A stretch of DNA of 64,000 nucleotides from Sorangiineae bacterium NIC37A_2 (GTDB lineage: Bacteria > Myxococcota_A > Polyangia > Polyangiales > Polyangiaceae), in assembly GCA_002085155.1 (NCBI GenBank), contig NASX01000005.1:77811-141810 (forward strand). Direction: 5' to 3'. A model generated the notes under the pieces. That model searched no databases and was not told where the DNA came from. It saw only the letters and a program-made list of their open reading frames with translations. This document shows, piece after piece, positions 13,164-40,861 of the stretch (positions within the stretch are counted from its first letter, which is position 1; each line of letters starts with the position of its first letter). Both the position numbers and the translations under genes were made by a program.

Positions 13164-14408
13164 TCAGCCCACGACCGGCGCCGGGTAGGACCATTCGTCG
13201 GTGCTAGCCGGATGACCGGAAGGGGGCGGATCCATATCCCCGAGGAAATCGAGGATGCGATCACGCTGGGCGCGGGCGTCCGCACGTCCCAGTTCAATCA
13301 GCTGCCGCACGAAGCCACCGTCAAACAAGAGGTAGCTCGGCAAGTCCGCCTGTTCCCCCGGATCGAGCCAATCGAGCAGGCGCCGCGTTAGAACCGAGCG
13401 GGTCCGGATCCGATTCGAGCGGAGATATTGGCTCCCGAGGGAGCCGATCGTCGTCGAAGGACGCACCGCCAGCACACGCGTCGGCTGCACGACGCGTCCG
13501 CCGCGCGCGACCGCCGCTCGGTTGTGCGCGGCGAGGAAACCATCACCGTAAGCGAGCGTCCCGGTCTCGATCAAATCGTTCACAAGCCGTGTCTGCGCGA
13601 GATCATTGTCCAAATGATCGAGCAAGAGCGCGTTCATGATCTTGCCGAGGATCAAGGCCGTGGTCGGGGTCTTCGCAGGCGTGCTCGCGACGATGCCGCG
13701 CTGTTCGCGGGAAGTGCTCACAACGAACAAATGGGTCGCGCCAAGCCGAATCGCCGGAGCAATCGGAGTATTGTGCCGGAGCGCGCCGTCCATGTAGAGG
13801 TTCCGGCCCACGCGGACCGGCGGGAACAGGATCGGGAGCGACGCTGAAGCGAGGACATGCTGCGGTCCGATCCGTTCGCTACGAATCAACGTGTTGGGCG
13901 GGGCGTGCGTCGGGAGTGAGGTGGTCGGGCCGGTCTGGACGAAGAGGACGGTGCGCCCCGTGTAGACCTCGGTGCAGGTGACGCTGAGGGCCTTGAGCCT
14001 GCCGGCGCGCATCGTGCCCGTGATCTGGGACCAAGGGATTTCTCGATGAATAATACGCGCGAGAGGCGCCGCGTTGATGAGCCCACTCTCGCCCCCCGGT
14101 TTGAGCCAGCCGAAGGCCTGCTTCAGGCCGAAGTCCATGACCTGATCGAGCTCGAGGCCCTGCCAGAGCGTGCGCAATTTGGCCATTCCGGCCGCGGGAT
14201 CTTTGAGATGCGCGGCCAAAAATGCCGCGTTGATGGCCCCGACGCTCGTTCCGCACAGGATGTCGACGGCGATCGGAATATTCCGGATCTTCTCGAGCTC
14301 CTCAAAGAGATAGCTGAGCACTCCCACCTCATAGGCGCCCCGCGCTCCGCCTCCCGACAGAACAATCGCGAGCCGACGCTCGACGCCTTCCGGCAACTGA
14401 AAGGTCAC
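13164..14408 (-). CDS. Patatin-like phospholipase
   Basis: Predicted lipid acyl hydrolase with a Ser-Asp dyad. The 414-residue product starts close to the oxyanion-hole glycines SGGGARGAYEVG (GGGARG at residues 19-24). The nucleophile motif GTSVG (Ser55) follows, then the DGALRHNTP block with catalytic Asp207. There is no signal peptide, so the enzyme is probably cytoplasmic or delivered by another route. The C-terminal third after about residue 330 is helical and of unknown role. Its ATG overlaps the stop of the upstream kinase gene by four bases (ATGA), pointing to coupled translation. The substrate cannot be inferred. Confidence 0.9.
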   Translation of the reverse strand: MTFQLPEGVERRLAIVLSGGGARGAYEVGVLSYLFEELEKIRNIPIAVDILCGTSVGAINAAFLAAHLKDPAAGMAKLRTLWQGLELDQVMDFGLKQAFGWLKPGGESGLINAAPLARIIHREIPWSQITGTMRAGRLKALSVTCTEVYTGRTVLFVQTGPTTSLPTHAPPNTLIRSERIGPQHVLASASLPILFPPVRVGRNLYMDGALRHNTPIAPAIRLGATHLFVVSTSREQRGIVASTPAKTPTTALILGKIMNALLLDHLDNDLAQTRLVNDLIETGTLAYGDGFLAAHNRAAVARGGRVVQPTRVLAVRPSTTIGSLGSQYLRSNRIRTRSVLTRRLLDWLDPGEQADLPSYLLFDGGFVRQLIELGRADARAQRDRILDFLGDMDPPPSGHPASTDEWSYPAPVVG

Positions 14409-17400
14409 GCCTCTCCTCCCAAATAGGGCTCGGAGCGAACCGGCGAGGAAAGCAAAAACTGCACAGGTGGACGGCTCAAAAAGGACTTCCAGAGGCTCGG
14501 CTCACGCAGCGCATCAGACCGCGCCTGAGCGAAAGCAGCGGCGCGACGACGCAGCTCCGTCGCCTGGGGCGAGCGCGCCTTTTCGAGCGCCTCACAGCAG
14601 AGGGCCCGGGTCTGGAGCGCGTATTCACTTCCTTGCATGGCCTCCACGGCGCCGAGCGCCGCGGTGGCGAGGAAAATGCCCGTATGGTGTTCGCCGACAT
14701 CCACGCGGGCGGCCGCCTCGATGGCCATCGCGTAGAAATGGAACGATGCGTAGGACTGGAGTCCGACCGCGTCGCGAGCCTCGAGGGCTCTTTGGATCGC
14801 CTCGTGAGGGCGCTTCTGCGTCCGCGCCAGGAGCGCCCGGAGCACACGCTCGTGGGTCGCGTCATAACGGTTCCCCGTAACCTGGACCAGTGCAGCGGCG
14901 TCTCCGACCGCGACAGCGGCTTCCTCGACGCGTCCACATTCGAGAAGCACCTCCGCCATCGAGAGCAGCGTGTCCGCGCGGGTGTCGCGCTCGCCGAAGC
15001 GCTCATGCTCATCGCGAGCACGATTCAAACAGTCGAGGCCCTTTCCATAGTTACCAGCCCCAGCATAGCACAAGCCCAAGTTGGCTAAGGTCTTAGCAGC
15101 CTGAAATCGGCCGCCAATCGCGGCGTCGATCTGGAGCGCATCCTCAGCGAGCAAGATCCCGTCTTCGTAGCGCCCGAGCGCATACATGGCGAAAGAAAGG
15201 GAACTCATCGCCCGCGACTCCATGCGCCGCGCGCCCGCTTGCTGAAAAACAGCGATCGACTCGGCGTAAGCCTCGACCGCTTCGTTCACGCGACCCACTC
15301 TGCGCAGGAGCGTGCCGCGAATCCGCAAGACCTCCGCCCGCAGACGTGGCGTCACCTCCGGATGGTCTGCGGCGAGCAGCGCTCGATCGGCTGCGGCCAG
15401 TGCGCCTTGCATATCGCCCAGATCGCGGAGCACCTCCGCGACCAGACCGAGCGCTTGTACGGCTAAGATTTCGCTCGAGGCAACACGGGCAGCTTGTTCC
15501 GCGAGCTGAGCCGTGCGCGCCGCCTGCACGAGTTGTCCCGCGTCGAGCTCGTACCGAGCGCTCCGGAGGAGGCTCACCGCGACCCAGTATCCGCTCTGAG
15601 AGCTCCTCGCCAAAGTGCGCAGGCGATTGAGGTAGTTTCGGCGTTCGCGGCGCCTGCCCTCGTTCCGCGCCATTGCCTCGAGAGCTTCGAATGCCTCAAG
15701 GAGCCTCCGATCATCCGGAGGCAAGATGGCGACAACCTTCTCGTAGCAGCGACCGGCGATATCCATTTGGTAGCTGCTGCGCGCAGCTCCCGCCGCTTCC
15801 AGATAGAGCTCCGCGGCTTGATCAGCGAGGCCTCCCTTGGCCAAATGACGAGCAACCACCGCCGCAAGAACGCCGCGATGTTGGTTACTCGAGGCCAAGA
15901 GCTCGCCGAGAGCCCGGTGGAGCTCGCTCCGTCGCTCGCGTCCGATCGAGCGGTAGGCAACGTCGCGGATCAGAGGATGTTTGACATCGATAAACCCTCC
16001 GCGCGCTTCGATGATGCCACGTGCAAGGAGCTGTTTTAGTACCTCGTCGGTATCGAGCCCGTAGAGGGTCTCGAGATCGGCCTCAGAGAGGGGGCCCGAA
16101 GCGACGGCGATCCACTCGAGCAAGCGCTGTTCCTCATCGCCGAGCTCGGTGAGACGGTCTGCGAGGAGCTGTTCGACGGTGCTCGGGAGGGTCAGAACGC
16201 TGCCCGCCAAATCGACGCGCTCGAGATGGTTCGTGCCGTCCGGGCCTTCACGCACCTCGAGCACGCCGCGCTCGATGAGCGCGTCGACCATCTCGAGCAA
16301 GAAATAGGGGTTTCCGGCGGCGCGCGGGAACACGTCCGCGCAAACCCGCTCGACTCCGGGCCCTACTCCGAGCCGCACCTGCAAGAGACGCGCTTGGCTC
16401 TCAGGCGAGAGCCCCGACAGGTCGATGCGCAGCCGTCCCTCAACGTACGGCAGGACGCGCACCTCAGGCCGTGTCACAAGCAACACGAGCACCGGGAGCG
16501 AGCCTCCTTCGTCGATCAGCGCGCGCACCAGATCGAGCGTGCCAAAGTCGCACCACTGCATCGCATCGAGCACGACGACCAGGGGGCCCTCCGAAGCCAG
16601 GCGCACCGCGAGCTGACGCAGACCCAAGAGGAGCGCCTGCTTTTGGTGCTCGACCTCGCTCTCGTCGAAGACATCGGTCTGTCTTCCGGTGACGAGATCT
16701 GTCAATCGCTCGACGGAATCGCGCGTCTCCGGTGTTTCAGGAATGTCGGCCCAGCCGAGCGCCTCCTCCACGAGCCTCCGGGCCTGGTCTCGGGGCTGGT
16801 CCGCGCGCGTATGAGTGAGCTCGCGAAGCCAGTCGGTCACAACACCAAACGGGACATCGCGGCGACCTTGGAGACAATCGGCGCGCAGCACACGCGCGTC
16901 CGGAGGAAGCTCATGCAAGAAGGCATAAACGAGCGCCGTCTTTCCAATCCCGAGCTCACCGCTGATGACACGCACGACAACGCGCGGATCTCCCGAAGTT
17001 TGCCCAACGGCGCTGTAGTAAGCCGCGTGTAAATCGGCCATCTCCGCGTCACGCCCGATGAGCTCGGCGGGCGCGTGGGCCACCTCTTGTAGCTTCTCTT
17101 CCCGAGTCAGACCGCGCAAAAGCGAATAGACTCGGAGCTGCGCCGGGAGTCCTGGCTTATGGATCGCGACCGTCGGCGCATCGCCCCAGAAAAAGTCTCT
17201 GCGGACAAGTCGGTAGAGACCGCCGGCGACGAGGCTCGCGCCCTTCTGCGCATGATCGCGCAGGTAATCGGCGAGCAAAATGGCCGACTCGGCGAGCTCA
17301 TGATCTTCGAGGTTACCGGAGCGGTCGCGGCGTCCGGTCGCCACGCTGCGCACGACGCCGGCCCGCACACTGATCTCGACGTCCAAATCTTCGCTCGCCG

Positions 17401-18826
17401 CGCGCACGCCATCATGGGCGTCGACGACGAACCAAAGGGAGTCAGCGGCAGCCGCGGCAGGGTGCGCGAGAAGACCAGCGACACCTCGCCCGCGAGCGAC
17501 GAGTCCCCCTTCGCGTTCCCAGCGCAGCTGCATGTTTCGCTTGAACGCAATCGCGTCCAAAGTGCTTGCCACGCGGTCTAAGGCGGCGCGAGCGCCGTGT
17601 TCCCCGAGGCGTTCAATGAGCTCTTCGTGCCCGTCGATCGCCAGCGAGACGACAGCGACGTGCCGCACTTCGTGCCCTTGTTCGCGGAGTGGCAGGAGCG
17701 GCTCGACGGGCGTCCCCTCGCCGGGATCGGCGGTCGCTTCGTGGCGGGTCTCTTTTGAGCGAGGTTGCTCCTCGATCTCGGTCCGCGGCGAGCCGAAGAG
17801 CCTCGCGAGCTCAGCCTCGAGAGTATGAGCATCGACGAGCTCCCCCATCTCGAAGACCGCCCGCGACAGGGCCTGAGAGAAGTCGCGAGCCGTGGCGAAG
17901 CGCTGCGCGGGGTCGGGCGAGAGGGCCTTCAGGACGATGGCGTCGAGCTGCGGCGGGATGCCCAGCACGAAGTGGCTGGGCGGTTCCACGTGTCCTGCGC
18001 GCACCGCCTGCAGCAGGGCCTCTCCTTCGAGGTTGCCGTGCAAGGGGCGCCCGGTCAGAAGCTCGTGGAGAACGACGCCGAGCGAATAGATGTCAGTGCG
18101 GCGATCGACCTTCTGACCACGCGCCTGCTCCGGCGACATGTAGCCGGTCTTGCCCTTGAGGACGCCGACCTCTTCGCGGAACAGGTTCGCGCTCGCGATG
18201 CCGAAGTCCGCGACCTTCACAGCACCATCGGCGCTCAGCAGGATGTTCTGAGGCGAGACGTCTCGGTGAACGATCTCGAGAGGCGCGCCGCTTTCATCCG
18301 TGCGCTCGTGGGCATAGTGAAGACCTTTGGCGACCTCTGCGGCAATGTAGGCCGCGAGCGCGAAGGGGGTCCTTTTTTCGCTGGCCCGAGCTGCTTTCAT
18401 GAACGCGCGAAGATCGGGGCCGTCCACGAACTCCATACTGAGGAGCTGCCCGTCGTCGCCGTAGTCTTGGAACTCGTAAACTTGAACGATGTTCGGATGG
18501 TTCAGGCGCGTGGCGAGCTGCGCCTCCTCGGCAAACATCATCCGGAAGCGCCGCGACGAGACGTAGTCAGGCAGGACACGCTTCAAGACGAGCAGCTTGA
18601 AGGTGCCTTCGGCCCCGCGCTTCTTCGCGAGGAATACCTCCGCCATGCCGCCTACACCGAGGCGACGCACGACCTCAAAATCCGCGAGGCGATCGGGGAC
18701 CGAACGGTCCACGGTCGGAAGCGAATCCGTAGCCAAAGACGAACTCCCCTCAGACACCGGCGCGCCCGCAGGCGTGGAGGTGCCGCTCGGGGCTCCCGTA
18801 CTTCTCAGATCGCTATCCGTCGTCAT
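14405..18826 (-). CDS. Ser/Thr kinase fused to cyclase-like, STAND ATPase and TPR domains
   Basis: A 1473-residue signalling protein. The kinase domain (about residues 50-330) is complete: glycine loop GVGGMAEV (57-64), Lys82, catalytic loop HRDVSPQN (Asp189), DFG (Asp207-Gly209) and the GYMSPEQARG activation segment. Residues near 390-570 look like a class III nucleotide-cyclase fold (VAVVSLAIDGHEEL, VSVRAGVV-type strand, late AESAILLADYL) but with no recognisable metal-binding Asp pair, so it is probably inactive. An AAA/STAND ATPase follows, with Walker A GELGIGKTALV and an LVVVLDAMQWCD Walker B region. The last about 470 residues are helical TPRs. The layout resembles the kinase/cyclase fusion proteins known from myxobacteria. 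The stop overlaps the patatin start by four bases. Confidence 0.9.
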   Translation of the reverse strand: MTTDSDLRSTGAPSGTSTPAGAPVSEGSSSLATDSLPTVDRSVPDRLADFEVVRRLGVGGMAEVFLAKKRGAEGTFKLLVLKRVLPDYVSSRRFRMMFAEEAQLATRLNHPNIVQVYEFQDYGDDGQLLSMEFVDGPDLRAFMKAARASEKRTPFALAAYIAAEVAKGLHYAHERTDESGAPLEIVHRDVSPQNILLSADGAVKVADFGIASANLFREEVGVLKGKTGYMSPEQARGQKVDRRTDIYSLGVVLHELLTGRPLHGNLEGEALLQAVRAGHVEPPSHFVLGIPPQLDAIVLKALSPDPAQRFATARDFSQALSRAVFEMGELVDAHTLEAELARLFGSPRTEIEEQPRSKETRHEATADPGEGTPVEPLLPLREQGHEVRHVAVVSLAIDGHEELIERLGEHGARAALDRVASTLDAIAFKRNMQLRWEREGGLVARGRGVAGLLAHPAAAAADSLWFVVDAHDGVRAASEDLDVEISVRAGVVRSVATGRRDRSGNLEDHELAESAILLADYLRDHAQKGASLVAGGLYRLVRRDFFWGDAPTVAIHKPGLPAQLRVYSLLRGLTREEKLQEVAHAPAELIGRDAEMADLHAAYYSAVGQTSGDPRVVVRVISGELGIGKTALVYAFLHELPPDARVLRADCLQGRRDVPFGVVTDWLRELTHTRADQPRDQARRLVEEALGWADIPETPETRDSVERLTDLVTGRQTDVFDESEVEHQKQALLLGLRQLAVRLASEGPLVVVLDAMQWCDFGTLDLVRALIDEGGSLPVLVLLVTRPEVRVLPYVEGRLRIDLSGLSPESQARLLQVRLGVGPGVERVCADVFPRAAGNPYFLLEMVDALIERGVLEVREGPDGTNHLERVDLAGSVLTLPSTVEQLLADRLTELGDEEQRLLEWIAVASGPLSEADLETLYGLDTDEVLKQLLARGIIEARGGFIDVKHPLIRDVAYRSIGRERRSELHRALGELLASSNQHRGVLAAVVARHLAKGGLADQAAELYLEAAGAARSSYQMDIAGRCYEKVVAILPPDDRRLLEAFEALEAMARNEGRRRERRNYLNRLRTLARSSQSGYWVAVSLLRSARYELDAGQLVQAARTAQLAEQAARVASSEILAVQALGLVAEVLRDLGDMQGALAAADRALLAADHPEVTPRLRAEVLRIRGTLLRRVGRVNEAVEAYAESIAVFQQAGARRMESRAMSSLSFAMYALGRYEDGILLAEDALQIDAAIGGRFQAAKTLANLGLCYAGAGNYGKGLDCLNRARDEHERFGERDTRADTLLSMAEVLLECGRVEEAAVAVGDAAALVQVTGNRYDATHERVLRALLARTQKRPHEAIQRALEARDAVGLQSYASFHFYAMAIEAAARVDVGEHHTGIFLATAALGAVEAMQGSEYALQTRALCCEALEKARSPQATELRRRAAAFAQARSDALREPSLWKSFLSRPPVQFLLSSPVRSEPYLGGEA

Positions 18827-19091: not shown

Positions 19092-21305
19092 GTGAACCCG
19101 ACTCTTTCTCGGCTTGGACTCCTCGGCTCCCGGCTCGGCCTCCTCGGCGCCCTGATGGCCACGTCCGCCTGCCATTCGAAGCCCCCCGAAAGCCCGAGAG
19201 AGGGAGCGGAACCGGAAGCGGCGTACGACACCACCCTACCCTCGCGCGAGGAGTTTCCGGAGCTCGTCCTGAACCTGCTCACGTCCCCGGCCGATGCTCA
19301 GAGAGCCCGCTCCGATGTGATCCGCGTCGTGCAATATCAGCTCACACGCGCCGCTGACCTCTACGCAAAGGGTCAGGAAGAAGCAGCGGCGAGCGCGACG
19401 CTCGGCGCGCTCCTCCTATTGCGCGACGGAGACAATCAGCGAGTTGCCCTCCGAGGTCACGAAGCGACGCTCTTGAACGCGGCAAACGGCGCGGCGCGCC
19501 TCGGGGACAGCGGACAGGCCACCGCCCTTTACCGCCTCGCGCTCATGCACGGCAGTGACGCGACGATGAGCGAACCTCAAGAGCACCTGCGCGCTATCGC
19601 CGACTTCGACGAGCGCACGGCGCGCTCGTTTCCGCTCTCCCGAGCCGGGGAAAAGGCCCGCCACGAGCTGCTCGCGGCGGTGAGGGATGGATCACAGGAC
19701 CAGTACACACGCGCGGAGACGAGCCTCATCGCTTGGATCCAAATGGCGCTCGAAATGAACCAAGAGCCCCCGCGAAACGTCGATGAGCACACCCAAAGGG
19801 AACACGCTCTCGAAGAGTATCGCGCGCTGCGCAGCGGCGGTCTCGCCATGCTCGCGCTCGCGGTTCGTCAAGGCGATCCGAAGCGCGCCCTCGATGCGCT
19901 CGATCGAAACGGGCTCAAGCGCGCCCTGCCGAGCCAAGTTCGCTCTGACGTCTTGCTCGCTGCGGCCGGCGAATCCGCAGGCTACGTCGAGCTCTATCGT
20001 CTGTTCGACGCTGCGCGGAGAGCCGAAGTCGGCGAAGCAGGCTTGCCTCGGCCCATCCTGGATGCAGCCGTTTTCTGGTCTGCGGTGCTCGCCGCGCGCA
20101 ACAGCGACGGAGACATCGATGAGGTGTTGCCTCTCGCCATCAGCCTCGTCGAAGTCGGCATCAGCGAAGCGGCGGCGCGTCTCCTCTCCCACATCTCGGC
20201 GAAGAACCTCTCCACCGAAGGGCTTTCGTTCTGTCTCACCATCCTCGGACGAGGTCTATTCGACCACGCGCGCGCAGGGATGCTGGAGGAAGCGGAGCAG
20301 GTGTATGCGGAGATGAAGCCGCTCTTGCTCCTCGCCCGCACTCCGAAATTCCAGGGCATCGAGCCGAGCCCCTCGAAGATCACGCGTGTGCTCGCTGAGG
20401 CTGAGGTTCGCGCTGGGCGCCTCAAGCTGGCTTTGCCCCTGCTCCTCGAGATTGTAGCAGAAACTCCGAGCCCGAACGTGCATCTTGAGCTCGCGGCGAT
20501 CTACCGCCAAGCAGGACGGCGGGACCGGGCCCTTGAAGCCATCGACCGCGCCGTGCAGCTCGCCCAAGCAGAGGGACAGCTCTATACCGAGGCCGTCGCG
20601 GAGACGGAGCGCTTCGAGATCGAACAAGAGCAGGGACGTCTCGATGAAGCCGCGGCTTCCCTCCGCCGCGCCCTCGAGCGAATCCTAACAGTGCGCTCCT
20701 TGGATTTGCCTGTGCTCTCCCGCGCCGCCATCGAAAGGCAGCTCGCGCGCATCCTGGAGCACTACGGGGACCGCGACGGAGTCCGTCGTGCCTACGAGCG
20801 CGCGCTCACCGAGAGCCGCGGCGTGTCCTTTGAGCTCACGGCGACCTTGACCGAAATGGCGCGAGCGTCCGTGACCATGGCGGACCTGGAGCTCGGGAGG
20901 AGCGCCCTGCGCTCCGGCGTCGAACTCGGCATCGAGAGCGAAGGTCTGCTCTACCTGGCGCTTTGGCAGCTCATCGTCGAACGCACAAAAAGCGTGCCCT
21001 CGAACGGTCTGCCCGTCCAAGTGCTGGAAGCGTCCGGTGACCTACGCGGTTGGCTGCGAGGCCTGCGCGGCTGGGGTCTCGGGCGCATCACGGGACCCGA
21101 ACTCGTGCGTTTGGCCGATACGAAGGTCGAAGAGGTCGAGGGCATCTTCTACACAGCGATCCTCGCGCCCCCCGAGCAGCGTCTCCCTGCCCTTCAGAAG
21201 GTCGCGAGCAGCGAAGCGATCGGCCTCGTCGAGGTCCAGATCGCCCGCGCTCTCACCGAAGCCAAGGGCGTCTACCAGCTCCCGGCAGAGGTCAAGCTCC
21301 CCTGA
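19092..21305 (+). CDS. TPR-rich lipoprotein of unknown function
   Basis: A 737-residue protein beginning at GTG 19092 with a lipoprotein signal (SRLGLLGALMATSAC, Cys about residue 27) followed by a charged, disordered stretch. The rest is nearly all helical and contains tetratricopeptide-like pairs: EAAASATLGALLLLRDG, GRLKLALPLLLEIVAETPSP, LELAAIYRQAGRRDRALEAI and the C-terminal RRAYERALTESRG. It should be a membrane-tethered scaffold facing the periplasm. A short repeat in the signal (RLGLLG twice) is visible. The 265 bases upstream, shared with the divergent kinase gene, hold no clear promoter to my eye. It converges with the channel gene with 24 bases between stops. No specific function can be assigned. 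Confidence 0.7.
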   Translation: MNPTLSRLGLLGSRLGLLGALMATSACHSKPPESPREGAEPEAAYDTTLPSREEFPELVLNLLTSPADAQRARSDVIRVVQYQLTRAADLYAKGQEEAAASATLGALLLLRDGDNQRVALRGHEATLLNAANGAARLGDSGQATALYRLALMHGSDATMSEPQEHLRAIADFDERTARSFPLSRAGEKARHELLAAVRDGSQDQYTRAETSLIAWIQMALEMNQEPPRNVDEHTQREHALEEYRALRSGGLAMLALAVRQGDPKRALDALDRNGLKRALPSQVRSDVLLAAAGESAGYVELYRLFDAARRAEVGEAGLPRPILDAAVFWSAVLAARNSDGDIDEVLPLAISLVEVGISEAAARLLSHISAKNLSTEGLSFCLTILGRGLFDHARAGMLEEAEQVYAEMKPLLLLARTPKFQGIEPSPSKITRVLAEAEVRAGRLKLALPLLLEIVAETPSPNVHLELAAIYRQAGRRDRALEAIDRAVQLAQAEGQLYTEAVAETERFEIEQEQGRLDEAAASLRRALERILTVRSLDLPVLSRAAIERQLARILEHYGDRDGVRRAYERALTESRGVSFELTATLTEMARASVTMADLELGRSALRSGVELGIESEGLLYLALWQLIVERTKSVPSNGLPVQVLEASGDLRGWLRGLRGWGLGRITGPELVRLADTKVEEVEGIFYTAILAPPEQRLPALQKVASSEAIGLVEVQIARALTEAKGVYQLPAEVKLP

Positions 21306-28363: not shown

Positions 28364-29563
28364 TCAAGGCGTCGTTTCGACGAAGGGCAGCTCCTCGCCC
28401 CGCGGCAGCGGGGACCTCTGCACCTTCATCTCCACGTCGACGATCGCAATCTGTCCTTTTTGCACCTCGATCAAGCGCTCTTCCGGGGGCGCGTTCGGAT
28501 GCTCGAGACGGACCAGATGTTGACCAGGAGAGACCGTGAGCAGCGCAGCAAAGGGAGTCGTGTCCTCGTAGTCTCCGTCGACAAACACCCGCGCCCAAGG
28601 GCGCGCCACGACGCGAATGCGCGCCTTCTGAGAATCGGAAGCCTCGACGGGCACGCGGCTGAGCCGAATCGTCTCCGATGGGCGCGAGCGCACCACGAGC
28701 CCGACCGCAAAGACAAAACACATGGCGAGCAAAGCGCCCGCTGCCCCGAAAAAGATGCGCCGTGAGCGCCGACGCGGAGCGGCAATTTCCCTGGCCTGAT
28801 CCTGCTCGATCCGCTCGAGTTCCTCCTTCACGGCCAGCATGCTCTCGGGACGGTCGGCGGGGATCGGCTCGAGACAACGCCGCACGAGGTCCAACAGACC
28901 GTTCGGCAAGAGGAATCGCGTCGCCACTTCGCGGGCGGAGATCTGGGGAGTTCCCGCGCCCCCGCTCAGGGGTTTACCTGTGAGGATGTGATAGGCGAGG
29001 GCCCCGAACAGGTAGACGTCCGAGAGCGCCGAAAAAAGGCCGCCTCGGCTCACCTCGGGGCAGAGGAGCGCGACGCCGGTCGCCAGATCGCCGGAGACAA
29101 TGGCGCGAGAGCTGTCGACAATGAAGCGAAAGCCTCGGATCTTCACCGAGCCATCGACGACACTGACGCGTTCCGCATCGAGCCCACCGTGCAAGACTCC
29201 TTGCGCGTGAGCGTAGCTGAGCGCAGAGGCGAGCTCGCGAAGCAGGGTCAGGAGCTCGCCAGGGTGCTGGCTCGAGTATTCGACAATGTCCTCGCCGCTC
29301 GTGAGCTCCATCACGACGGCGATCTCCGTCGCGCTCTCCGAAAATGAGTAAACCTGAGCGATGTTCGGGTGCTTCAGGCGGGCGTGGGCCCGGGACTCGT
29401 CCATGAGCGCTCGAGCGCGCGGCGACGAGGGAAGGAGGCCTTCCTCGAGGCGGACGAAAGCCACTCGGCGACCTAAGGGCTTCTGGATCGCCTCCCAGAC
29501 GGTCCGACCGTCCCCTCGATGAAGCTCGCGGGCGAGCTCGAGTTCGAGCTGCTCAGGATTCAT
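28364..29563 (-). CDS. Membrane-anchored pseudokinase with PEGA domain
   Basis: A 399-residue protein with the fold layout of a Ser/Thr kinase but without its chemistry. The ATP-anchoring Lys is replaced (VAFVRLE, Arg38). The catalytic loop reads HGGLDAER, so HRD-Asp is Gly127 and the Asn is Arg132. DFG is replaced by GFR (144-146). Surrounding kinase landmarks remain, such as HARLKHPNIAQVYSF, VMELTSGEDIVEY and SDVYLFGALAYHILTGKP. A membrane helix (about 270-290, GAAGALLAMCFVFAVGLVV) leads to a PEGA domain (ARVFVDGDYEDTTPFAALL). It is likely a regulatory or scaffolding protein with its sensor outside. It sits 60 bases downstream of an FHA gene on the same strand. Confidence 0.88.
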   Translation of the reverse strand: MNPEQLELELARELHRGDGRTVWEAIQKPLGRRVAFVRLEEGLLPSSPRARALMDESRAHARLKHPNIAQVYSFSESATEIAVVMELTSGEDIVEYSSQHPGELLTLLRELASALSYAHAQGVLHGGLDAERVSVVDGSVKIRGFRFIVDSSRAIVSGDLATGVALLCPEVSRGGLFSALSDVYLFGALAYHILTGKPLSGGAGTPQISAREVATRFLLPNGLLDLVRRCLEPIPADRPESMLAVKEELERIEQDQAREIAAPRRRSRRIFFGAAGALLAMCFVFAVGLVVRSRPSETIRLSRVPVEASDSQKARIRVVARPWARVFVDGDYEDTTPFAALLTVSPGQHLVRLEHPNAPPEERLIEVQKGQIAIVDVEMKVQRSPLPRGEELPFVETTP

Positions 29564-35066: not shown

Positions 35067-38000
35067 CTAACGGCTCGGGCGCAAGCTCGACTCCATTTCC
35101 TCGACGCGCTTCTGAAAAGCCCAGGAGCGGCGCTCGGAGAGAGCGCGGCGAAGCCACATGCGGCTCTCTGCGTCTCCCTCCTCGACAATACGCTGCGCGG
35201 CCAAGGTCGCGAGTTCAAGCGATGGCCCGAAGAGCATTTCATGAAGGGCCTTGCGCGCGACCGGAAGCTCCGCGGTCGGAAACGGAAGGGCATCAAGAGC
35301 GGCTCCGCGAAGAGAGGCTTCGGGGCTCATCGTGAGCGGCTCAAGTTCCCCCTTGAGCTCCTCAACGAGCGCCCTCTTGAGCCCCCGAGGCCACGGAGGC
35401 AGCCCTTTGAAGCGCCGCGAGAGTCGGCGCAGAGCGACTTCGCGGAGCGGTGTATCCTCGGAGAGACGCGCTCGAAGCACCGTCTTCAGCTCCGCGCGCA
35501 CAAGCTCGTAGGCGTCCTCCGGGGTCTCCGTCCGTTTCGAGACAAGCTCCTCGAGCCAGGCCTCGAGGTCCGGGGAGCCATCACAGAGAGACTCGGGCAG
35601 CCAAAGGCCAAAGTCAGCCCCGAGCGCGACACCGAGAGCTCTGTGGGCTGCTCTTTGAAGCAAAGGCTCGGGATCAAGCGCAGCCACGGCGATCGCCTTC
35701 CGAAGCTCGGGGCGCAGCCCGTCCCCTTGTCCTCCCCGAGACGCGCTCAGCCGCTCCCGAGCCTCAGAAAGCCCAAGCCCAACGAGATGAGCCGCGCGGA
35801 CAACAGGGACTTCGTTTTTCTCTGCGAATCGTCCTGGCGCTCCCAGGGCAAGGAATTGACTGGCGCGGCTCGTAGGGGCAAGCGGGAGGGGATCATCGCT
35901 CGAAGGAGTCGCTTCACCCCGGGCGCCAAGCGCCAGCCAAGCGATTGTCTCGAGAGCCGGCACCTTGGAGGAGCGAAGTGCCCCAAGCGCGCGGGTTGTC
36001 CTCGGATCGGAGACCTTCGCGAGCCCGAGCGCGAGGCTGATGCGAATGCGCGGCGCGTAGCTGTCGCTGTCTCGTGAGACATCGAGGAGCGCTAAGAGTG
36101 CCTCTTCGTCTCCTGACGACCCGACGCGTTCGATCAGGGGGCAGGTCACCTCATGAGGCGCCCCCGAGAGCGCATAGTCGAGCAGAGCGCGCACGGACTC
36201 GGTCCCCCCGACGCGTGATAGAATTCTGGCCGCGCGAGCGCGTTCTTCCTCCGTGCCGCGGGCCAAGATCGTCAAGAGAGGCATACGCGCACGCCCTCGG
36301 GCTGCCTGCGTTTCCACCATGCGGTGCTCTCGAACCAGAGCTTCAGGAGGAAAAAGAGATTCGTAGAGCGCGAGGATGAGCGCCCGATAGCCTGGATGAT
36401 CCGGACGCGCTGAGAACGCACGCACAGTCTGCTCCTCGACCGACAAAAGAATCTGCGTGGCATCGGAGCCAGCTTTGCTCCGGAGTAAGAGGAGCGCGTC
36501 CGAGGCCGCCGCGAACTCTTCGGGGGACTTCGAGACCGTTAACACGTTCAAATAGAGCTGAGCAGCTTCGCGAACGCGCCCTTCCTGAAGCAAGAGCGCG
36601 GCCTTTTTCAAAAGGACCGCCGAGCGGCGCGGCTCCAGGCGAAATGCCGTCTCGACGCTCTCGAGCGCCTCCTTCGCTCGACCGAGACCCTCGAGCGCCT
36701 CAGCTCGAAGCAACAGGGCGCTCACATCCCGCGGCGCGGCTCGGAGAAGCGCTTCGCTCGCCTCCAGCGCCTCGGCCATCTGGCCGCGCAAGAGGCTATT
36801 CTTCGCGACCTCTCGCAGCCTCAGGGTAGCGGCCTCGCTCTCCGCGGGCAGCGAAGAGGCGAGCGCTGCTCCACCATCCCGTCGCCCCGCCCGCGTCTTG
36901 CGCGCCTGGAGGCCCTGGTCGAAGGGAGATTTCTGAATGAGCGCCGTAAGGATTTGATCGGCCTCCTCCGCGCGACCGAGAGCCTCCAGCGCCTCCAGCA
37001 GGAGCTCGGCGTGGGCGCGATCCACACGCCCGCTCTCGTATTGCTCTCGGAGGCGCTCCGTTTCCCCTTCGAGGACCTGGGCTCGACTCCAAAGGCGCAC
37101 CACATGCCGCGCCGCTTCCGCCCGCTCATTGCCCTTGAGCTTGCTATCCAAGGCCAGCTCGAGCCAAGCGCCGATGGCGAGCGCACGTCGCTGTGCCTCG
37201 TGCGACCTCTCGAGGGTCATGGTCCGCGAAAGAGCGAGGGCCCGCGCGCGCAGCACCTTCGGGTCGCTGGGGGCTCGCGCACGTGCCTTGTCATGCGCAA
37301 GCAGGCCTTCCTCGATCAGCTCGTGGTCGATGAGCACGTCGGCGTAGCGACTGAGCGCGGGACCGTCGGGATTCGGACCACGCGCCTTGAGCCAGGCCTC
37401 TTTAGCCAAAGCTTGATCGCCCGCTAGGTATCTCCGACTGCCGAGCTCATAAAGCAGCCCGCGGTCCTGTGTCTTTTGGAGCAGAGACTTCTCGAGGCGT
37501 TCACAGGCAGGCCCATCCAAGGAGCTCAGACAGAGATCGACAATGGTCAGCTTCTCGTCAGCAGTGCTGAGGCGCATGAGGGCGCGCTGAAACTCTTGTT
37601 CGAGCCGCTCCCGCTCGCCCAGAGCTCCCATGAGCTCCAAAACTCGGACGGAGGCCCCTAGGTCCCCGGGGTTCAGCCGCAAGAGCGCCTGGTACGCGTC
37701 CCGCGCTCCGCGCAGGTCCCCTGCCCGCTCGAGAAACTCCGCGAAGCCTCGCGCCAGCTCGACGTCTGCGGGGGCGAGCGCCATCGCCCGCCTGTGACAA
37801 GTGAGGGCTAAAGCCGAGAGACCCTCTGTTTCCAGAGCTCGCGCGAGGTAACTGAGAGTCTGGTTGTCGGACTTCTCTCTGCAAGCGGCCTGCGCGAGAG
37901 CCTCGAGACGTCGCTCCGAGCGGGCTCGCTCGATCTCCAGGCGAAAGAGCTCGCGCTCGATCTCAGGGTCAAAGCGGCCCAAGGCCCGCGCTCGCTCGAG

Positions 38001-38885
38001 CTCCTCGCGCGCTCGCTGATCATCGCCCAACTCAAGCAAGACTGCCGCCAAGCGAAGCCGGAGGGGTGCGACGATCTCGGCCTCCTGCGCTTCTGAGAGC
38101 GCGACCTCGTAGGCTGTGCGCGCCTGCTCCAGCGCGCCGCGATCCCGATAGGTGTCGCCGAGGCTCCAAGCTTCTCTCGGTTCGATGCGGGTGAGCTCGC
38201 TCTGGTACCCGGCAGCACCCGCGTCATCGCCGTGGGCAAGAGCGAGCTCTCTGAGCCTCCTGAGCAGCTCGCCTCGCTCCACGGGGCGCACCGTCCCCCG
38301 GGCCCCATCGAGAACAGAGCGAGCGGCGACCGGGTCGAGCTCGGCGAGAAGTACGTGAGCGTCCAGGCGCTCCGGTGCGCTCGCTTTCGCCTTTTCGAAC
38401 CAACTTCGCGCGCTCTCCTTGTCACCTTTCATCCACTCGAGACGACCGAAAAGGATCTCCGCCCCGTATCTCCGATCGAGATCGGTCCCTCGGAGATCGC
38501 GCTCAAGGCGTTCTGTGAGGCCTTTGAGGTTCGGGTCGTGGTCTCGCAGCGTCTCGACGAGCTTCTTGAGCACGACGCTGTCCTGGGGCGTCCGAAGCAA
38601 GGACGCGTAAAGTCCCTCCGGAAACGCACCCCGAACCTCATTCGCCGAGGCCGCCGGGCGCGCTCTCGTTGCGCTCGCCTGTGGGGGCGCTTCGCTTGTG
38701 GTAGCCGGGGCACGCGAACCTCGAGGCGGGCTGCTCGGAGCGGGTTTCCCCGCAGCCGGAGCGGGCCGCTTGCGACCGGAGGGGGAGAATTGCGCGTACG
38801 CTTCACCCGAAAGAGCGCCCCCACTCAGCACCAGGACAAACAGTGCCGTCGGGAAGAGAAAGGGAGCAAGCCGCGCTCGGCGCAC
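35067..38885 (-). CDS. Giant secreted TPR and HEAT repeat protein
   Basis: A 1272-residue protein with a signal peptide (LAPFLFPTALFVLVLSGGALSGEAYA) and then a proline/serine/alanine-rich linker of about 60 residues. From about residue 90 to 850 it is a long series of TPR-like helix pairs, for example EWMKGDKESARSWFEKAKASAP, GDDQRAREELERARAL and GDLRGARDAYQALLRLNPGD. The last third changes to HEAT-like repeats (EEERARAARILSRVGGTESV; DEEALLALLDVSRD; GLAKVSDPRTTRALGAL). Both repeat types form protein-binding solenoids, so a periplasmic scaffold is likely. I see no catalytic motif. It stands alone: pepA converges from one side and a divergent membrane-protein gene lies on the other. Confidence 0.75.
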   Translation of the reverse strand: MRRARLAPFLFPTALFVLVLSGGALSGEAYAQFSPSGRKRPAPAAGKPAPSSPPRGSRAPATTSEAPPQASATRARPAASANEVRGAFPEGLYASLLRTPQDSVVLKKLVETLRDHDPNLKGLTERLERDLRGTDLDRRYGAEILFGRLEWMKGDKESARSWFEKAKASAPERLDAHVLLAELDPVAARSVLDGARGTVRPVERGELLRRLRELALAHGDDAGAAGYQSELTRIEPREAWSLGDTYRDRGALEQARTAYEVALSEAQEAEIVAPLRLRLAAVLLELGDDQRAREELERARALGRFDPEIERELFRLEIERARSERRLEALAQAACREKSDNQTLSYLARALETEGLSALALTCHRRAMALAPADVELARGFAEFLERAGDLRGARDAYQALLRLNPGDLGASVRVLELMGALGERERLEQEFQRALMRLSTADEKLTIVDLCLSSLDGPACERLEKSLLQKTQDRGLLYELGSRRYLAGDQALAKEAWLKARGPNPDGPALSRYADVLIDHELIEEGLLAHDKARARAPSDPKVLRARALALSRTMTLERSHEAQRRALAIGAWLELALDSKLKGNERAEAARHVVRLWSRAQVLEGETERLREQYESGRVDRAHAELLLEALEALGRAEEADQILTALIQKSPFDQGLQARKTRAGRRDGGAALASSLPAESEAATLRLREVAKNSLLRGQMAEALEASEALLRAAPRDVSALLLRAEALEGLGRAKEALESVETAFRLEPRRSAVLLKKAALLLQEGRVREAAQLYLNVLTVSKSPEEFAAASDALLLLRSKAGSDATQILLSVEEQTVRAFSARPDHPGYRALILALYESLFPPEALVREHRMVETQAARGRARMPLLTILARGTEEERARAARILSRVGGTESVRALLDYALSGAPHEVTCPLIERVGSSGDEEALLALLDVSRDSDSYAPRIRISLALGLAKVSDPRTTRALGALRSSKVPALETIAWLALGARGEATPSSDDPLPLAPTSRASQFLALGAPGRFAEKNEVPVVRAAHLVGLGLSEARERLSASRGGQGDGLRPELRKAIAVAALDPEPLLQRAAHRALGVALGADFGLWLPESLCDGSPDLEAWLEELVSKRTETPEDAYELVRAELKTVLRARLSEDTPLREVALRRLSRRFKGLPPWPRGLKRALVEELKGELEPLTMSPEASLRGAALDALPFPTAELPVARKALHEMLFGPSLELATLAAQRIVEEGDAESRMWLRRALSERRSWAFQKRVEEMESSLRPSR

Positions 38886-39003
38886 CTGTCCATCTTAGCG
38901 CGTGCCCAGAAAAGGCCGAGCCGAAAACCCGGGTTCATGCACGGCCCCTTCTTGACTATAGCGTTCGCACCCCAATGAGCCGCGCCTGCGAGAAACAAGC
39001 CCC

Positions 39004-39948
39004 ATGAAACGCCCTGCGCTCGGCCGCGTGCTGCGGGGCATCCTGTTTGTCGCTGCGCTCGCCTTCGTACTCAAGACGGCAAGTGACCTCTCCAGAGCTT
39101 GGGACTCCCACGCGGTCCAGGTCAAAGGAGTCTGGCTGACCGTCGCGCTTGGCCTGAATTTGGCGGCTCTCTACGTCCAAGGCCTGGCCTATTTGGCGAT
39201 CCTTTCGAGCTGGCTCGGCCAGCCCCTCGATCGGAGGCCAGCGCTCTCCGTCTTTTTCGGGTCCCAGCTCGCCCGCTACACTCCCGGGAAGGTCGGCCTC
39301 CCGGGAGCCCGCATCGCCGGAGTCGCGGCCCTCGGCGGTTCGAAACAGCAGGTGCTCGTCAGCACCATTGTGGAAGTGCTCGTTTGGTTGTCCGTCGGAG
39401 GAGTGACCGGTATCCTCTTCTTTGCCGCCTCTCCGTTTGTTTGGATCACGTCGGGCTCCGCGCTGCAGTTTGCCCTGCTCGGTCTCTCGATCCTGCTCTC
39501 CGCCCTCGGCTTCAAACTGGCGGCGCTCAACTGGGCCCAAGTGCGCAGGCTCGTCGCTCGCCTCGTCCCGCCGCTCGTCTCACGACTCGACGGTCCGAAA
39601 GATACAAGCCCCCTCGCTCCTCCTTCCAGCGTAGGCTGGTTCATCGCTCACTGGGTGCTCACGATTCTCACCGGCGGCGCGCTCTGCCTTGCGATCGGCG
39701 GCGCAATGTCCGCCGCGATCCCCGCAGGGACCACCCTCGTCCTCGCGATCGTCCTCGCTTTCCTTTCCTTCTTTGCGCCGGGCGGCGTGGGGATCCGTGA
39801 AGCAGTCCTCGCTGCCTGCGCCGCTCCCCTCGTCGGCGCCAAGGAGGCCACCGTGCTCGGGATCTTGGCCCGGATCATCTCGCTCGTTGCCGAGGTCCTT
39901 CTTTGGGTGGGGAGCCGCCTTCTCGCCCGAAGGGCTGAAAGCTCTTGA
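39004..39948 (+). CDS. LPG synthase-type (UPF0104/AglD-like) membrane protein
   Basis: A 314-residue integral membrane protein with about eight helices. The family pattern is visible in VFFGSQLARYTPGKVGLPGARIAGVAAL, then VSTIVEVLVWLSVGGVTGIL and the late LAFLSFFAPGGVGIREAVLAA. Together these mark the membrane domain of lysylphosphatidylglycerol synthases and the related UPF0104 group. The tRNA-dependent acyltransferase domain of MprF is absent. In this family, stand-alone membrane domains are thought to act on lipid intermediates, often next to glycosyltransferases; here a GT2 gene lies about 1 kb downstream on the other strand. ATG 39004 starts right before a basic residue pair and a hydrophobic segment. 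The substrate is unknown. Confidence 0.78.
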   Translation: MKRPALGRVLRGILFVAALAFVLKTASDLSRAWDSHAVQVKGVWLTVALGLNLAALYVQGLAYLAILSSWLGQPLDRRPALSVFFGSQLARYTPGKVGLPGARIAGVAALGGSKQQVLVSTIVEVLVWLSVGGVTGILFFAASPFVWITSGSALQFALLGLSILLSALGFKLAALNWAQVRRLVARLVPPLVSRLDGPKDTSPLAPPSSVGWFIAHWVLTILTGGALCLAIGGAMSAAIPAGTTLVLAIVLAFLSFFAPGGVGIREAVLAACAAPLVGAKEATVLGILARIISLVAEVLLWVGSRLLARRAESS

Positions 39949-39967
39949 AGCGTCGATCCCGAAGCGC

Positions 39968-40861
39968 TCAGCCCCTTTTCTCGGGTGCTCCGCGCCGATA
40001 GACGGTTTGAACCAAGACCACGAAAAGGACGAGGAGCCCGCCGGTCACCCCGCCCACCAGGAGCGGATAGAGGCTGCCAAGGACCCAATGTAACTCCATC
40101 GCCGCTTCGCCAAGCCGAGCGAGGAAGGGGACGCCGTGGGCCACGATCCCTCCTCCCACGAGGAACATGGCGATCGTGCCGGCAACGCCGAGCAGCTTCA
40201 TGAGCGGAGCCGCCGCGCGCACCAAAATCCGACCGAGCGCCTGGCTCAGGGCAGACGGTCTTTTGAGCAAGAGAAGACCCAGGTCGTCGAGTTTGACGAT
40301 CGCGAGCACGAGCCCATACACCCCTACGGTCATAACGAGGGCAATCGTGACGAGAGCCGCGATTTGTGAGCCGAGAGGATGACCCGTCATGGTGCCGAGA
40401 GCGATCACGATGATCTCGGCGGACAGGATGAAATCCGTACGGATCGCGCCCTTTACGCGCGCCTTCTCGAACGCTTCGGGATCGCTCAGAGCCAGCTCTT
40501 CCGCCCTGTCGCTCTCCGGCGAGTGGTGAAAGATTTTCTCAGCGACCTTCTCGGCGCCTTCGAAGCAGAGGTAGGCGCCACCGAGCATGAGCAAGATCAC
40601 GACCAATGGCGGATAGACCGCCGTGATCAAGATCGCTGCCGGGACCAAGATGGCCTTGTTGATCAAGGACCCCCGCGCCACTCTGAGCACCACGGGGAGC
40701 TCCCGATTGGCGGGGGCTCCCGAAACTTGCTCTGCGTTCAAGGCGAGGTCATCGCCCAGAACCCCTGCGGTCTTCTTGGCGGCGACCTTGGTCATGAGCG
40801 AGACATCGTCGAGCAGGCTCGCGATGTCATCGATGAGAGAGAGTAAGCTCGTCCCGGCCAC
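39968..40861 (-). CDS. DUF808 (YedI-like) inner-membrane protein
   Basis: A 297-residue membrane protein matching the YedI/DUF808 pattern. It starts MAGTSLLSLIDDIASLLDDVSLMTKVAAKKTAG, with the conserved DDIASLLDDV helix. It continues with GVLGDDLALNAEQV, KAILVPAAILITAVYPPLVVILLMLGG and AEKVAEKIFHH. Further segments include LVTIALVMTVGVYGLVLAIVKLDDLG and a C-terminal GVTGGLLVLFVVLVQT. The function of this family is not established. It converges with the preceding membrane-protein gene with 19 bases between stops. Its start is 115 bases from the end of the GT2 gene on the same strand. Confidence 0.88.
   Translation of the reverse strand: MAGTSLLSLIDDIASLLDDVSLMTKVAAKKTAGVLGDDLALNAEQVSGAPANRELPVVLRVARGSLINKAILVPAAILITAVYPPLVVILLMLGGAYLCFEGAEKVAEKIFHHSPESDRAEELALSDPEAFEKARVKGAIRTDFILSAEIIVIALGTMTGHPLGSQIAALVTIALVMTVGVYGLVLAIVKLDDLGLLLLKRPSALSQALGRILVRAAAPLMKLLGVAGTIAMFLVGGGIVAHGVPFLARLGEAAMELHWVLGSLYPLLVGGVTGGLLVLFVVLVQTVYRRGAPEKRG

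Follow-up and report, generated by a model that had tools for sequence, protein, structure and literature searches.

The window, that is, the whole stretch of 64,000 nucleotides analysed here, carries on its minus strand a gene for a multidomain protein kinase followed by a gene for a patatin-like phospholipase. Their features are the following:

14405..18826, minus strand: kinase-pseudocyclase-STAND ATPase-TPR protein of 1473 aa (ORF call and Pfam)
17894..18679, minus strand: Hanks-type Ser/Thr kinase domain, residues 50-311 (Pfam PF00069, Pkinase, E 2.3e-36)
17102..17671, minus strand: class III cyclase-like domain, residues ~386-575 (profile matches; catalytic Asp absent)
15947..17065, minus strand: STAND-type ATPase and winged-helix part, residues ~588-960 (AAA_16, E 7.9e-20 at 588-781)
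14447..15946, minus strand: TPR superhelix, residues ~961-1460 (Pfam TPR_12; AlphaFold model)
14415..14419, minus strand: Shine-Dalgarno sequence GGAGG of the patatin gene, within the kinase coding region, 6 nt before the GTG
14405-14408, minus strand: GTGA stop/start overlap of 4 nt (the plus strand reads TCAC)
13164..14408, minus strand: patatin-like phospholipase of 414 aa (Pfam PF01734, E 2.3e-29)

The 1473-residue kinase/ATPase/TPR protein proposed by an earlier, sequence-only reading of this DNA is borne out by the ORF call and by Pfam (Pkinase, AAA_16 and TPR). The coordinates given there, 14405-18826, cover the kinase gene only, and the patatin gene lies to their left, outside them. 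As it had stated, the kinase stop falls within the first codon of the patatin gene, but the overlap reads GTGA instead of ATGA, the patatin start codon being GTG. The GGAGG preceding this GTG is predicted to be a good ribosome site, while a promoter/terminator scan was uninformative. The N-terminus of the kinase protein is uncertain, with no Shine-Dalgarno sequence at its ATG and homology starting from about residue 43. Neither protein displays an obvious membrane segment or signal peptide when its sequence is read, and the kinase protein is apparently soluble.

The kinase domain is active-looking. The VAIK Lys, HRD Asp, DFG Asp and SPE/APE motif of Hanks-type kinases are all present, and K82, E101, D189 of HRD, D207 of DFG and SPE (230-234) are 93-99% conserved among 105 sequences. 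Downstream, the cyclase-like part compares by profile with the class III adenylate cyclases of PDB 5o5k and 4p2f (E ~1e-6), and Pfam Guanylate_cyc is found in 12 of 29 relatives (best 3.1e-6), the window's own copy being below detection. The part called cyclase-like from sequence alone is thus a class III cyclase homologue by profile. In the family alignment, however, whose register was set by visual comparison with the known motif, other residues occupy the positions of the two metal-binding catalytic Asp; an active class III nucleotidyl cyclase is therefore rejected and the domain is referred to as a pseudocyclase. The ATPase includes the Walker A GELGIGKT (K629), the Walker B D760, the sensor-1 R786 and a GNP at 838-840, all 99-100% conserved, so that the Walker A/B motifs, sensor-1 Arg and GxP motif ahead of the winged helix characteristic of STAND ATPases are present. 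Asp189 and the Walker A Lys, the two residues singled out by the sequence-only reading, are therefore conserved as expected. The AlphaFold model of residues 380-1473 has a pLDDT of 87.8; among solved folds it comes closest to 6mfv, a STAND protein whose sensor consists of TPRs.

The patatin-like protein carries a GGGARG motif, a GTSVG nucleophile (S55), the catalytic D207 and a conserved helical C-terminal part with SYLLFDG. The GGGxRG oxyanion loop, the GxSxG Ser and the DGG/DGA Asp of patatins are thus present, and G19-G24, S55 and D207 are invariant in alignment A1, save single loop positions. By these motifs, it is predicted to be an acyl hydrolase with an intact active site. Its model (pLDDT 88.1) matches the folds of CapV, PlpD, CapE and plant patatin at 12-17% identity. 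The genome of the window includes one full patatin match and a partial one.

By sequence, the two proteins belong to the Hanks kinases, STAND ATPases and patatins, and closer relationships to described systems were considered. The TOMM kinase/cyclase model (TIGR03903) shares the kinase, cyclase-like and ATPase regions in the same order and matches at 504-1017, but with a total of 178.2 bits against a curated cut-off of 705.75, a score that rejects this identity. The window's protein further differs by its patatin partner and its lack of catalytic cyclase residues, and an NCBIfam scan of neighbouring genes recognised no TOMM cyclodehydratase or precursor gene. STAND-TPR proteins such as PH0952 (PDB 6mfv) and MalT-like regulators have the same Walker A/B, sensor-1 Arg and GxP-type motif followed by TPR, whereas the window's protein adds an active-looking kinase and a pseudocyclase in front, and no DNA-binding output was recognised in it. 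In the open-access literature searched, which leaves most subscription papers outside, no description of a kinase-patatin operon or pair was found.

The sequence-only reading had suggested searching for the same two genes in the same order among relatives. Using the non-kinase part of the first protein as query, a match was obtained in 125 of 177 genomes of the order, and a strong patatin match occurs in 160 of 183 (paralogues included). Among the 104 kinase loci fetched at order level, the window being additional, 75 are followed by a patatin gene on the same strand, including loci with only 26-33% kinase identity. It mostly follows immediately, L084 being an exception with 1.6 kb in between. 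The 4-nt start/stop overlap is available in 47 of the 76 pairs (46 plus the window), and the gap is at most 150 nt in 68 of them by the script's measure. As a control, the largest homologous family of flanking genes covers only 18 of 73 pairs upstream and 11 of 74 downstream. The pairing is beyond chance: the two genes stay together where their neighbours differ. Among the carriers with names are Sorangium cellulosum So0157-2, Minicystis rosea, Polyangium, Labilithrix and Sandaracinus, and it is on these that the naming of the order, one of soil and water bacteria, as Polyangiales is based. The pairing pointed out from the window thus proves deeply conserved and translationally coupled, with active-site residues kept in both proteins.

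The sequence-only reading had also held that regular occurrence of each gene without the other would count against a link, and this is partly the case. The kinase stands without an adjacent patatin at 29 of the 104 order-level loci. In these, no recurrent same-strand replacement partner was found within the order, the next gene being mostly on the opposite strand, and a partner swap is thus rejected. Outside the order, the patatin of the paired family is absent from all 31 loci (L281-L311) in the stretch fetched, a few contigs ending near the kinase. Because so many kinase loci lack an adjacent patatin, the kinase cannot be solely a patatin controller. The converse, patatin without kinase, occurs in several clades: clade f7 and genus g64 have kept the patatin with no full-length kinase detected, whereas in the family of the window, the paired-type patatin is nearly always with the kinase, G118 and G068 being clear exceptions. 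This reverse loss is rarer than patatin loss. Pairs are split with both genes retained in G087, G180 and G181. A distance of ~17-18 kb separates them in G180 and G181. In G087 (loci L188 and L085), a natural split in which both genes are open, the patatin keeps its place in the ancestral block, with the TPR gene on one side and pcrA on the other, and the kinase is on another contig. Unpaired patatin paralogues of the same order and of some Gammaproteobacteria MAGs share the length and motifs at ~35-44% identity and are not beside the kinase.

The neighbours of the pair are a divergent TPR gene and, farther out, pcrA, dnaA, dnaK, pyrroline-5-carboxylate reductase and nadA. The divergent TPR protein (737 aa, 19092-21305, plus strand), possibly a lipoprotein, is found beside the pair in ~20 related loci, which share a syntenic block of TPR, kinase, patatin, small TPR gene and PcrA. 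In sub-clades, two different same-strand genes recur 3' of the patatin (11 and 8 loci) and are possible third operon members, the first kind at L103, L106, L109-L111, L114, L115, L121, L125 and L126, the second at L154, L156, L159, L160, L164 and L168-L170. Outside the order, a recurrent same-strand gene of 156-247 aa just 3' of the kinase homologue (L292, L299, L303, L304 and L307) is a possible alternative partner. Elsewhere in the window, a second short Hanks-type kinase of 399 aa is encoded at 28364-29563 on the minus strand, and the AT skew at 38001-40000 is sharply negative (-0.154) compared with its surroundings, a region adjoining a 1272-aa TPR protein (35067-38885).

In the kinase tree (FastTree), the proteins from outside the order all lie on one side of one branch. 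Within the order, the distribution of paired and unpaired states requires 12 changes, of which starred branches force 11. By these comparisons, the kinase architecture is older, phylum-wide and without patatin, and since the same architecture exists outside the order with no adjoining patatin, the kinase-patatin link would be a specific gain. The simplest history is a single recruitment of the patatin, close to the base of the order, by this older kinase, to which it would be dispensable, followed by at least ten losses or detachments. In the patatin tree, a single clade unites the paired proteins and also takes in a few unpaired ones (the kinase-less clades f7 and g64, G118, G068 and the split pairs). 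Both trees hold the same main clades, with a Mantel r of 0.72 reached in 0 of 999 permutations. Matching distances are what co-inheritance predicts, but simple vertical descent would yield congruent trees as well. In close pairs, every folded domain of either protein has a dN/dS below ~0.25; only the linker that follows the kinase departs from this. The TPR part, with 0.02-0.22, is thus not a fast-changing sensor. In three close pairs devoid of patatin, dN/dS is no higher; this purifying selection indicates that the kinase keeps a function without patatin. A relaxation of a docking domain after patatin loss was also considered and rejected, as no clear domain-specific relaxation appears in these three pairs, for which dS is partly high.

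The two genes are a genuine pair, and the pairing probably has a function. The reading that we prefer, at about an even chance of being right, is a vertically inherited two-gene operon of Polyangiales in which a signal integrator holds or activates a patatin as an optional, co-translated phospholipase output. The upstream protein would be a soluble integrator with a Ser/Thr kinase, in which the pseudocyclase is probably a scaffold or a ligand pocket, the STAND ATPase probably switches and assembles on ATP, and the TPR superhelix may bind a partner or signal. The patatin, made by coupled translation, would be a cytosolic acyl hydrolase with membrane or storage lipid of the same cell as its substrate. 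Most likely, the integrator would hold or activate it through phosphorylation or through docking to the STAND/TPR part, this being one output among several. We infer gating of the patatin by the kinase or the ATPase and, likewise, physical contact, the direction of control, the lipid substrate and the trigger. Several points count against this reading: the kinase persists unpaired, under similar purifying selection in the three close pairs measured, and may have its main job elsewhere; f7 and g64 have a patatin with no full-length kinase detected; and operonic coupling can reflect shared expression only.

A plausible alternative, towards which we lean less than halfway, is co-expression alone: the kinase-STAND protein would regulate other targets, and the patatin would serve lipid turnover under the same conditions with no direct control. 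The kinase without adjacent patatin in at least ten lineages and at every outside-order locus checked agrees with this, as does the patatin without kinase in f7 and g64, and the dozens of kinase-domain matches in the window's genome mean that regulatory partners abound. Conversely, co-expression sits poorly with a 4-nt overlap that has outlasted very deep divergence and the turnover of other neighbours, and with an asymmetric loss in which the patatin is rarely left alone in the family of the window.

An immune role, at which the sequence-only reading had hinted, is disfavoured. The Neurospora NLR PLP-1 is made of patatin, NB-ARC and TPR, and cell death requires its patatin domain and ATP-binding motif (PMC12881547). 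An NLR-like immune or allorecognition switch of this kind, in which the TPR senses a trigger, the STAND part oligomerises and the patatin damages the membrane as in PLP-1 or CBASS CapV, would use the same set of modules. CapV and CapE, with the same patatin core and catalytic Ser/Asp, are among the closest solved patatin folds, and the kinase domain resembles defence-kinase models. However, these PADLOC kinase matches are generic to Hanks kinases, the window's second kinase scoring too. CBASS membership is rejected: identity to CapV/CapE is 14-16%, the effector model NF041079 scores 42.7 bits against a cut-off of 200, and no CD-NTase match was found by PADLOC among the neighbours. The same scan of neighbours returned only generic kinase and helicase similarity and no defence genes, as the sequence-only reading had noted, and defence-system membership (PADLOC, NCBIfam CBASS/DS models) is rejected on scores and context. 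A bacterial NLR/Avs-type defence also fails, as its patchy mobile spread and variable sensor are replaced here by an order-wide vertical pattern and a TPR part under purifying selection. Moreover, the pair sits among core genes (dnaK, dnaA, pcrA and nadA), a patatin match is present in most genomes of the order, and no close phage or plasmid relatives of the patatin were found. An immune switch is thus improbable, and a routine cell function is more likely than an immune weapon.

The reverse flow, in which the kinase-STAND protein is tuned from the patatin side, by the enzyme itself or by its lipid product such as a released fatty-acid ligand, is very improbable: a ligand could plausibly bind the pseudocyclase and TPR parts and the kinase is the older, retained partner, but the kinase of patatin-less lineages would require another input.

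Under the preferred integrator-output reading, the likeness to PLP-1 is one of modules used together (patatin, STAND ATPase and TPR), with two proteins here instead of one, an extra kinase, no sign of diversification and no indication of a cell-death role. By analogy, the pair may work like a split patatin-STAND-TPR system such as this fungal protein. A bolder version, which we consider unlikely, makes it a two-protein counterpart of patatin-NLRs, a kinase-gated STAND-TPR switch that, order-wide, recruits or releases a patatin which remodels membranes for lipid signalling in development or predation. If true, a patatin controlled by a kinase-STAND hybrid would amount to a new principle of regulation.

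Myxobacteria and their relatives possess very many Hanks kinases, the targets of which are mostly unknown. Gene order and translational coupling name a candidate target, a lipid hydrolase, for one of these kinases order-wide. Culturable carriers exist in Sorangium, Minicystis and Polyangium, and the lineages that have the kinase but lost the patatin, together with the genomes in which the pair is split, provide natural controls.
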